From Cryomorphaceae bacterium (GTDB taxonomy: Bacteria; Bacteroidota; Bacteroidia; Flavobacteriales; Schleiferiaceae): a stretch of 40,578 bases of DNA. The notes beneath the pieces are model-generated. The model was not told the origin of the DNA. It was given only the letters and a program-made list of their open reading frames with translations, and made no database searches. The stretch covers positions 1-40,578 of the forward strand of contig JAFIEY010000065.1 in the NCBI GenBank assembly GCA_020832345.1, read 5' to 3'. Both the position numbers and the translations under genes were made by a program. This document shows positions 15,429 through 32,118 of the stretch, in pieces. Within the stretch, counting starts at the first letter, position 1. The number at the start of each line of letters is the position of its first letter.

Positions 15429-15561
15429 TGAGGCCACTCTAAAAAGGATGATTTCAATCAAAATCGACGCGGATGGGATTTTTGAACCGGAGCAAGTGAG
15501 GATTCGAAAGTCTATCGACAAGGAAGATTTTGGCAGAAAGGGACTTTTAAGAGCAGACTCA
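15429..15561 (+). mobile_element. MITE-like element, copy 2
   Basis: This 133-bp copy starts TGAGGCCACTCTAAAAA and ends GAGCAGACTCA. It carries a 6-bp in-frame insertion (around 15466-15475) relative to the copy at 31954. Flanks are TTTT on both sides (15425-15428 and 15562-15565), a possible 4-bp target duplication, although T runs are common here. It lies between the threonine aldolase stop (15583) and the porin start (15413). A reading frame MISIKIDADGIFEPEQV runs through it. Confidence 0.88.
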
Positions 15562-15582
15562 TTTTTTGGCCGGCAAAAGTAC

Positions 15583-28407: not shown

Positions 28408-29067
28408 CTATCCTCTGACGTCGAGTTCAAGAATGATTTTGTCGTCAATGAGTTTATCTTTTGCCAAACCTTCAATGCCGGTAGAACCGAACATCACGTT
28501 CCAGTTGGTGCGATCGATTGTGAATTCGGGTGCTTTGACTGCAACACCCTCATCATTTACATTTACCTTAACGGGAATGGTTATGTTTTGGGTATTGTCG
28601 CGCATGGTTAGATTGCCCTTCAAAATATGAGTTGTACCTTTTTCGTCGTTCATTTTCTCCGAAACTTCGGTAATAACAAAACGAGCTTCAGGGTGTTCAT
28701 CTACGGCAAAGAAGTCATCACTCTTTAGGTGACCGACTAATTTGTTATAGTTTTCTTCATTGCCTTCAAGATCCTTGCAATGGATGGTATTCATATCGAT
28801 GGTAAACTCACCTCCGACCAATTGATTGCCCTCCACTTTAAACATACCGGACTTAAGGTTGATTGTTCCGATGTGTTCGCCTTTCGAGTAGGTTTTAAAA
28901 CCTTTCCAATTGATGGTTGAGTTTGCTGCGTCTGTATCAACAGTACGCTCGGCCACTACCTCTTTTTCCTCTGCGGCATCCGTGGTATCAACGGTTTCAT
29001 TTGGAGCACTGCTACAAGCTGCGAAAATGGCAGCGGTTGCAATGGTGAAAAAACTTTTTTTGATCAT
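28408..29067 (-). CDS. YceI-family lipoprotein
   Basis: This 219-aa lipoprotein has cysteine 18 in FAACSS, a threonine/glutamate-rich linker (about 20-45), then a YceI lipocalin-like barrel: STINWKGFKT, GTINLKSGMFKV, GGEFTIDMNTI, LKSDDFFAVDEHPEARF, LKGNLTMRDNTQNI and FTIDRTNWNVMFGS. YceI proteins bind amphiphilic, often isoprenoid, molecules in the periplasm; the ligand here is unknown. It has its own promoter and terminator, so it is monocistronic. Confidence 0.95.
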   Translation of the reverse strand: MIKKSFFTIATAAIFAACSSAPNETVDTTDAAEEKEVVAERTVDTDAANSTINWKGFKTYSKGEHIGTINLKSGMFKVEGNQLVGGEFTIDMNTIHCKDLEGNEENYNKLVGHLKSDDFFAVDEHPEARFVITEVSEKMNDEKGTTHILKGNLTMRDNTQNITIPVKVNVNDEGVAVKAPEFTIDRTNWNVMFGSTGIEGLAKDKLIDDKIILELDVRG

Positions 29068-29122: not shown

Positions 29123-29350
29123 GGAAAGATTGTTCACAAGCAAAATACTTAATCTAATTTAAGAATTTGTTTTAAGTCCGAATGACTTTCGGTATTCGTG
29201 GAGGTTTCGATAGACCGAGTGTTTTTGTGCAATGGGGTTGAATGTTTAGGCGTTGAGTCGTTTAGGTGTTTAGTCGTTTTGAGACCGAACGTTTTTCGGT
29301 ATTCGTTGGGGTTTCGAGAGACCGAGAGTTTTTGTGAATGATGAATGGTC

Positions 29351-29413
29351 AATGGTTAATGGTTAATGGTTAATGGTTAATGGTTAATGGTTAATGGTTA
29401 ATGGTTAATGGTT
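29351..29413 (+). repeat. AATGGTT heptanucleotide tandem array, nine units
   Basis: Nine near-perfect tandem copies of AATGGTT occupy 63 bp inside the repeat desert. The array is a simple repeat likely to vary in copy number between strains. Confidence 0.93.
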
Positions 29414-29974
29414 AAATAACCAACTATCTTCGGTATTCGTTGGGGTTTCGAGAAACCGGAATCATTTGGTTCGTGGTCTTTTTTGTTCTGTAAACATTCA
29501 GGTAATCGGGACTCTTTTAATTGACAGTTGACAATGTGGGCGATGAACTGATTTCGGTATTCGTAGAGGTTTCGTAAGACCGAGAGTTTTTGTGCAATGG
29601 GGTTGAATGTTTAGGCGTTGAGTCGTTTAGGTGTTTAGTCGTTTTTAGACCGAATCTTTATCGGTATTTGCGGAGGTTTCAAGATACCGGAATCATTTGG
29701 TTTGTGGTCTTTTTTTGTTCTGTAAACATTCAGGTAATCGGGACTTTTTTAATTGACAGTTGACAATGTGGGCGAGGAACGGATTTCGGTTTTTGTAGAG
29801 ATTACGAGAGACCGAGAGCATTGGGTTGTCGTTTTTTTATCAATCACAACATACAGGATCAACCCCGCAGGGGTGTTGATGATTATAACAATGCCACAAA
29901 CACGAACCACAGAAAACAATTCCCCACCAAACTTCGGTTTCAAAAACCCATAAACATTACAATAACGGAAAAAA

Positions 29975-30000
29975 GGGCAACCACAAGGGATTGCCCCTAC
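29975..30000. repeat. Short hairpin repeat (GGGCAA/TTGCCC)
   Basis: GGGCAACCACAAGGG followed by ATTGCCCCTAC forms a 6-bp stem GGGCAA/TTGCCC. From memory, near-identical short palindromes occur between genes in many unrelated bacteria; only one copy is in this window. Confidence 0.5.
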
Positions 30001-30060
30001 AACTAAATTTGCGCCCAAAACTATTAAACACTTAAACCTTAAACATTTAAACCTCTATAT

Positions 30061-30197
30061 AACGTCCACAATCCAAACCGCACCCAACCCCCATTCCCCA
30101 AATCAACCCCCGACTTCCGACCTCCGACCTCCGACCTCCGACCTCCGACCCGCAAATAACCTCCACCATCCAAACCCCACCCAACCCCAATTCCCAA
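30061..30197. repeat. CGACCTC heptamer array flanked by a direct repeat
   Basis: Five to six tandem CGACCTC-type heptamers (30111-30150) lie between two copies of a roughly 39-bp C-rich direct repeat (about 30061-30099 and 30158-30197) that differ at a few positions. Confidence 0.85.
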
Positions 30198-30212
30198 AAA
30201 ACAAGCAAAATA

Positions 30213-31886
30213 TTATTCCAAGCTATTTATCTGCACCCGTTGATTTCTCACGGCTCCGGTTTGCCGGTTTTCCACTTGGATGATGTATAACCCAGAGGGT
30301 AGGTTTTCGGCTTGAATCTCAAATGGGACATTGGTTTGTTTTTTTATGACCGCAACACCCTGGAGATTAATCAAGGTAATGATAAAGTCTCCCGTTGGAC
30401 TTTCCGGAACGACGGAAAACACACCCTGATTTGGATTGGGATACACCTTGAAATTTGCTGATTTATTTCGGAAATACTTCTCAGTGGAGATGATCGGACA
30501 ATCAATAGATTGTAAAACGATTACGGTGTTTTCAAGCATGAAAAATCCACAGGGATTCATCAATGTATTTCCGTCGGTGCCATTTTTAATTGAAATGATA
30601 TAATCCCCGTTCATGGGTAAAGGTTGTGCCAATTCCAGAATAACGGATTGGGAAACGCCTTCATTGCAATTTTTTTGAATGCCGATAATTGGTATATTAA
30701 AAGAATCTGGAGATGTAATTCTAAACTCTGATCCGTCAGGCGAAATAGAATTGCACATGACAGGCTGACTAAATTCAACCTCTATTTCTGTGGACAAACA
30801 GTTGTATTTAAATGCCGGAAGGGCGATTTCAAATTGGGTGCTGTCATTGGGATCAAATATCGTATCGGCATTTGCGACACCTTGGGGATCAGGTAGTATG
30901 TTTAAAATATTGGGGCCAAAATTGGTGGTAGGAATGGAATCGACATCGGATTTAAGGGATGCTCCATTTACCGTCTCTGATTGGCAAGTGCCTCGCACGG
31001 TTAGCCAATATTCCCTATAGCTTGTCCCGACCAAAACGTAGTCGTTCAGTGTAGGGGAAAATCGGTAAGCTTGTGCAACAACAACATAAACATAATTGCC
31101 TTGAATACTATTGGATGATCTGAAATTAATCATACCATTGTTGTCTAAAACAACCACACCTGTATCAGTCATAAACGGTTGATCTTGTGAATACCCAGGA
31201 CTCATAACCATATCGGCAAAACTCCCAGTACATCCCCCGTTTTTTCCATAATTAAACCGATAAACCAAAGAATCTCCCTGGGGTGATTCCGCACCGTGAT
31301 TTAAAAACACATTTTGCCCATGACAAACATTGATGGGAACTTCTGGAACCAAAAATTGAGGCGAAGTAACATCCCCAAGATCTGTATTAAGCCTTGCATG
31401 AAGAAAGTTTGTAGAGCCTCCCGAGCCATTTGCCATATAGTTATCAGTATTAGCCACGGCTACCCTGCAACATGGAAAGGAAAATCGAAATCTAATATCT
31501 GAACAGGGGGAAGGAAGAACAACCGTACTCTCGTATGTATGCGTGTAAACTTCAAAATACCCTGGGCTAGTGGTATCCAAACATGGCAACTGTCCGTGGT
31601 GTGAGACACCGTTGGGAGGAGAGGTTTGGTTTACGGTAATGGTTTGATTAGGAAAACAAGTACTTGTTAAACAAAGATTATAGCTTTGCGGTACATTTAA
31701 AGTGGTGTAGTGCGGAGAACGCAGTAGTTTAAGGCTAACCAGATAATGGTGTGGGGTGTTCGTCGAATCACCTATGTAGCGATATGTCAATTCGCCACCA
31801 ACGAGATGCGCTGCACGGGTTGTGTGGTTTGCGCTGAAAATTATTAGTATTATTGAAAAACACGAAAAGCGTAATGATTGATTCAT
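30213..31886 (-). CDS. T9SS type A sorting-domain protein (paralog B)
   Basis: This 557-aa exported protein has a signal peptide (about 1-25, ending TRAAH), the N-terminal LVGGELTYRYIGDSTNTP block, a CSDIRFRFSFPCCR block (about 132-145), the ISPDGSEFRI block (about 382) and a T9SS sorting tail (YPNPNQGVFSV, about 483-493). The order of blocks matches the protein at 6803-8449, so the two are paralogs about 22 kb apart. No catalytic motif was recognised; a surface or matrix role is likely. A TATTTTTG -7 box lies 17 bp before the start, and a MITE-like element begins 68 bp upstream. Downstream is the repeat desert. Confidence 0.87.
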   Translation of the reverse strand: MNQSLRFSCFSIILIIFSANHTTRAAHLVGGELTYRYIGDSTNTPHHYLVSLKLLRSPHYTTLNVPQSYNLCLTSTCFPNQTITVNQTSPPNGVSHHGQLPCLDTTSPGYFEVYTHTYESTVVLPSPCSDIRFRFSFPCCRVAVANTDNYMANGSGGSTNFLHARLNTDLGDVTSPQFLVPEVPINVCHGQNVFLNHGAESPQGDSLVYRFNYGKNGGCTGSFADMVMSPGYSQDQPFMTDTGVVVLDNNGMINFRSSNSIQGNYVYVVVAQAYRFSPTLNDYVLVGTSYREYWLTVRGTCQSETVNGASLKSDVDSIPTTNFGPNILNILPDPQGVANADTIFDPNDSTQFEIALPAFKYNCLSTEIEVEFSQPVMCNSISPDGSEFRITSPDSFNIPIIGIQKNCNEGVSQSVILELAQPLPMNGDYIISIKNGTDGNTLMNPCGFFMLENTVIVLQSIDCPIISTEKYFRNKSANFKVYPNPNQGVFSVVPESPTGDFIITLINLQGVAVIKKQTNVPFEIQAENLPSGLYIIQVENRQTGAVRNQRVQINSLE

Positions 31887-31953: not shown

Positions 31954-32081
31954 TGAGTCCACACTAAAAATGGATGATTTCAATCAAAATCGAGGGGATT
32001 TTTGAACCGGAGCAAGTGAGGATTCGAAAATCTACCGACGTGGAAGATTTTGGCGGAAAGGGACTTTTTAGAGCAGACTCA
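31954..32081 (+). mobile_element. MITE-like element, copy 3 (best preserved)
   Basis: This 128-bp copy runs from TGAGTCCACACTAAAAA to GAGCAGACTCA. The two ends match as an imperfect 17-bp inverted repeat (14 of 17 positions). It is flanked by the direct repeat TGGC (31950-31953 and 32082-32085), the most convincing target duplication since it is not A/T-only. It is about 88% identical to the copy at 38307 by manual count. A reading frame MISIKIEGIFEPEQVRI runs through it. Confidence 0.92.
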
Positions 32082-32118
32082 TGGCTAAATTGCTTACAGC
32101 CTTGGTTTGTGGAAAAAG

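Follow-up and report, generated by a model that had tools for sequence, protein, structure and literature searches.

Arrays of short repeats between genes are a known kind of element. The nearest described architecture is, by analogy, that of the neisserial NIME, in which dRS3 inverted repeats and RS cargo make up intergenic arrays of 0.2-2.7 kb in hundreds of copies (PMC3898611); dRS3 has been suggested as a recombination site for cargo exchange in Neisseria (PMC3898611). Palindromic repeats of the REP/BIME type, whose intergenic mosaics are known from E. coli, flank RAYT genes; for the Bacteroidetes, a RAYT subclass (2.6) has been described whose flanking structures are atypical (PMC6006769).

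Here we analyze a composite repeat block from a Cryomorphaceae bacterium (assembly GCA_020832345.1, contig JAFIEY010000065.1), located in a stretch of 40,578 nucleotides (hereafter, the window), together with its counterparts elsewhere in the genome. The block is built on a motif that we designate H. As in NIME, short inverted repeats bound the cargo units of intergenic arrays and alternate with a few cargo families of 30-160 bases. Unlike NIME, the H blocks occur in another phylum and have another sequence: the 20-base dRS3 (ATTCCC-N8-GGGAAT) does not flank the cargo, and the repeated core pattern of H is ACCGAA-N5-TTCGGT...ACCGA. The H blocks are also strictly polar and carry T-tracts, and their tail is made up of further repeat families that follow a set order. 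Because the defining dRS3 sequence is missing, we regard the H block as an analogue of NIME and not as a member. Likeness to REP/BIME elements is seen in modules R, G, and g, which are intergenic palindromes of the REP type; R-like and G-type palindromes stand beside RAYT genes in relatives or beside the RAYT remnant of the source genome. In contrast, H contains no GTAG-tagged palindrome and has no linked RAYT gene, and the units of H blocks do not alternate in orientation; we take the H block to resemble BIMEs in how it works without being one of them. With intrinsic terminators, H units share a hairpin and T-tract close behind stop codons, but they form tandem arrays, are dispersed repeats, and often lie antisense to their neighbors. 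The original prediction had dismissed a CRISPR, and we agree: the units in the window vary (64-100% identity over 55 bases), the intervening sequences are repeated genome-wide, and no cas genes occur among the flanking genes scanned.

Results

The block extends from ~29172, where its left end is sharp, to ~30200, where its end is less certain. It sits on the + strand between a YceI-family gene (28408-29067), whose start faces the block, and the gene for a T9SS-sorted protein (30213-31886), whose 3' end faces it; both genes are on the - strand, and the block is antisense to both. The unit order is H1 HW H2KL H1 H2KL H3 R g N P D P, with all features except g on the + strand. An H-1 unit opens with H copy 1 (29189-29217) and contains the module 1 cargo, a degenerate 8-base repeat GTTTAGTC/GTTTAGGC (29244-29279). 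After copy 2 (29296-29324) comes W, a heptamer tandem repeat of 10.3 copies (29344-29415), and copy 3 (29430-29458) leads an H-2-K-L unit in which modules 2, K, and L (29458-29543) hold a hairpin arm, then TTTTTT. Another H-1 unit consists of copy 4 (29554-29582) with the second module 1 cargo (29609-29644), and another H-2-K-L unit of copy 5 (29661-29689) with the second copy of modules 2, K, and L (29689-29775). The L-H-3 unit (29770-29840) includes H copy 6 (29786-29814) and is terminator-like, with a long hairpin followed by GTTTTTTTAT. The second half (29858-30200) belongs to other dispersed families, not to H. It comprises R (29858-29889), a REP-like palindrome ACCCCGCAGGGGT with the conserved tail GTTGATGATTATAAC; g (29975-30000, - strand), a REP-like, GTAG-tagged palindrome (GTAGGGGCAATCCCTTGTGGTTGCCC on the - strand) with a T-tract after it on that strand; N (30026-30053), an AC-rich repeat of the 8-base type; two copies of P, a dispersed AC-rich module (30059-30091 and 30156-30188); and D (30106-30150), a heptamer tandem repeat (ACCTCCG) of 6.4 copies. 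Within the window, Rfam gave 0 matches at the gathering score, and no tRNA was found. A 12-base direct repeat, ACAAGCAAAATA, stands once on each side of the block (29136-29147 and 30201-30212) and reflects either chance or an older insertion trace; it was rejected as a target duplication because it does not abut the left end of the block.

The six H copies are spaced 107, 134, 124, 107, and 125 bases apart, precisely as the original prediction had placed them, and the 21-base core, at three or fewer mismatches, has five matches in the window versus 0.02 expected from shuffles. The core reads TCGGTATTCGTGGAGGTTTCGAGAGACCGAG, with GAGACCGAAC-N5 ahead of it, and H is ~45 bases long. Because a complementary arm (ACCGAAC...TTTTCGGT) stands 5' of the motif, the start of the motif shifts ~15 bases earlier than first noted. 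The self-pairing capacity foreseen for it is borne out, as is the composite nature of the region. The two longer duplicated blocks said to be interleaved with the motif are likewise real: 29187-29324 matches 29552-29689 at 90% identity, and 29479-29586 matches 29711-29818 at 92%.

With the window block as query, the source genome, whose type IX secretion domains mark it as that of a Bacteroidota, yielded 96 matches spread over many contigs, and the H pattern gave 117 matches versus 6 for the reversed control. A profile search (nhmmer) of 52 stretches of the draft genome found 129 H matches, 125 of them with E<1e-3, in ~49 blocks of one to six H copies, which sit in intergenic gaps; these block counts and lengths are lower bounds because many blocks run into contig ends. 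H blocks coincide with many contig breaks in the assembly.

A second, MITE-like element of ~129 bases has two copies in the window, at 31955-32083 and 15430-15562. Its ends, GAGTCCACTCC...GGAGCAGACTC, are imperfectly inverted, and an apparent 6-base target duplication, ATGGCT, accompanies the copy at 31955-32083. At 82-96% identity, the element was located at no fewer than 40 genomic sites, and 565 first-look candidates suggest far more.

Most H blocks follow one grammar: H-1 units, an optional H-W, H-2-K-L, H-3, at least one R, G or g, D, and P/N. Their left half is an array of motif-plus-cargo units, variable in number and closed by the H-3 unit; R comes next after H-3 in 24 cases, and G or g comes next after R in 21. 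In the tail, REP-like palindromes (R and G or g) and AC-rich repeats succeed one another in a mostly constant order. H-1 and H-2-K-L alternate in some blocks, that of the window among them, and a few blocks are a single H copy without the tail. Since this unit order recurs in other blocks across the genome, the arrangement in the window is the grammar of the family. Every block is polar, with a GT-rich left half and an AC-rich right half; GC skew was positive in 97% of testable left halves (n=35) and negative in 79% of right halves (n=29). The left end is sharp and common to the blocks, with unrelated flanks meeting (TT)GAGACCGAAC, often flush behind a stop codon; the right end varies. A simple ORF rule was used to call genes: for 29 of 47 blocks, the left neighbor has its 3' end facing the block, and the first H lies mostly 13-64 bases past the stop; the other 18 blocks lie 26-236 bases upstream of a start. 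This bias in orientation is weak; what stands out is how close the blocks lie to stop codons. In a hand tally of 18 two-sided cases, about seven blocks were antisense to both neighbors and about four stood between convergent genes.

Folded together with their preceding arms, H-2 and H-3 units give long, imperfect hairpins that reach about -32 kcal/mol, with T-tracts at the end. In the classes holding these units, a T-tract (at least six T in the eight bases past the hairpin) follows in sense in 52 of 55 units, and the mean folding z is about -1.9 versus -0.6 for H-1. Over all classes, T-tracts were found in 82 of 123 units on the sense side versus 3 of 123 on the antisense side, a contrast inflated in part by the T-rich left half. 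Because a hairpin is followed by a T-tract, H-2 and H-3 units look like intrinsic terminators, as judged by sequence features. The palindrome is real, with sliding lowering the pairing to 39-60%. A selected RNA fold is unsupported, since covariation does not rise above shuffles: the L-H-3 hairpin scored 0.130 versus 0.129 when shuffled (paired cells, 87.4% versus 86.5%), and for the H core, in either hairpin and over 123 copies, the excess over shuffles was less than one percentage point.

Only one RAYT-type (PF01797) match, to a Y1 transposase, occurs in the genome; it is a remnant interrupted by two in-frame stops (contig C99:38083-38376; L031 1501-1794) and is surrounded by G-type palindromes. 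In three relatives (L159, L160, and L161), R-like palindromes flank intact RAYT-type genes. These associations link some right-half modules with REP-type elements. H was absent from the vicinity of every RAYT examined, in the source genome or in relatives, and no transposase linked to H was found. A tandem ~170-base repeat that contains AACCACATAGACACATAGAGCACATAGAAG lies at the contig end (C99:38440-38785; L051 8444-8786).

Copies of the same class are ~80% identical on average, with some pairs at 95-99%, and several block pairs have 230-290 bases in common at 93-95% identity. When a unit has a same-class mate in its own block, its nearest relative is there in just 1 of 21 cases (0.7 expected by chance), and both H-2-K-L units of the window are closer to units on other contigs. 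The duplicated units of the window thus resemble each other no more than they resemble units in other blocks, which leaves the originally proposed higher-order duplication of a compound unit unsupported as a recent local event. Adjacent units have a common nearest block in 6 of 42 cases versus 6.2 expected. This independence made exchange at H look persuasive; however, a Mantel control on the halves within a unit revealed equally weak linkage for H-1 (r 0.11, p 0.14) and H-2 (r 0.09, p 0.24), so the independence of adjacent units is no pointer to H. Linkage within H-3 units was strong (r 0.51, p 0.001). The similarities among copies would fit either a burst with independent decay or frequent short conversion tracts.

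Outside the source genome, four congeners showed H at background level or close to it (0 to 6 matches), module K was not found in 59 other genomes of the family, and neither plasmids nor viral contigs gave a match. The exact H and K patterns found nothing in 84,980 species genomes, a search that diverged relatives would escape and a set in which the nearest kin are possibly absent. The repeat family is apparently not previously described. According to the original prediction, a unit absent both elsewhere and in relatives would be a local decay product only; it is indeed absent in relatives, but abundant elsewhere in its own genome. Since the family occupies one species and is missing in relatives, its origin or expansion probably lies within the genus. 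Empty sites were sought with three flanking proteins of other blocks, of which only nusB was informative, and three congeners have no H element behind nusB. The congeners offered no orthologous empty site for the window block, the genes upstream of yceI being different in them, and a clean empty site was not found for any block among the sites compared. The source genome is 4.0 Mb in size versus 2.3-2.6 Mb for the four congeners, a gap that the H blocks, totaling some tens of kb, do not explain. Congeners have simple 8-base repeats of their own (GTTTAGTC type) in intergenic gaps (L066, L068), either GT-rich ones that follow a stop codon or AC-rich ones that precede a start; thus, the simple-repeat habit may predate the composite.

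Discussion

The region is probably a single representative of a composite intergenic element that is non-coding, polar, and lineage-specific, that spread as a passenger, and whose H-2 and H-3 units are terminator-like. Movement of the whole composite in one piece by a putative transposase, as a large MITE-type transposon, would account for the fixed module order, the sharp common left end, and the long stretches that block pairs have in common at 93-95% identity. We consider it unlikely, because most copies are only patchily related, with adjacent units traced to a common block no more often than expected; moreover, inspection of the block ends revealed neither terminal inverted repeats nor consistent target-site duplications, the right end varies, and ACAAGCAAAATA does not adjoin the left end. 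It is quite improbable that the blocks are a selected regulatory device, namely tandem terminator arrays insulating adjacent genes. Although the hairpin and T-tract occur in one orientation and blocks begin directly behind stop codons, such a device is missing in congeners, behind nusB too, lacks covariation, and is antisense to both neighbors in the window and more often so than convergent among the two-sided cases.

There is a slim chance that H is the recombination site of a site-specific cassette system through which cargo units are exchanged, as the analogy with NIME (PMC3898611), the joining of units of differing cargo at H, and the independent nearest relatives of adjacent units would suggest. 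Against this, the control fails, with the halves of one H-1 or H-2 unit hardly better linked (r about 0.1), and no recombinase was found. A Bacteroidota non-coding cassette system, in which a dedicated enzyme would recognize H as a recombination site and so build up and rearrange intergenic series of terminator-bearing cargo units, is very unlikely.

As passenger DNA, the composite element would have been copied into intergenic gaps in this lineage, with unit number coming to vary among blocks and recent local tandem duplication leaving little trace. RAYT-type transposases are the probable agents that spread the right-half palindromes. In blocks that follow a stop codon directly and in sense, the H-2 and H-3 units would act as intrinsic terminators or 3'-end hairpins. 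The spacing and nesting of units would carry no code. With its ordered modules, GT/AC polarity, and terminator-like units, this family, which occupies the gaps between genes in one species but not in its relatives, offers a good opportunity to study how intergenic mosaics are put together and whether they turn into terminators.
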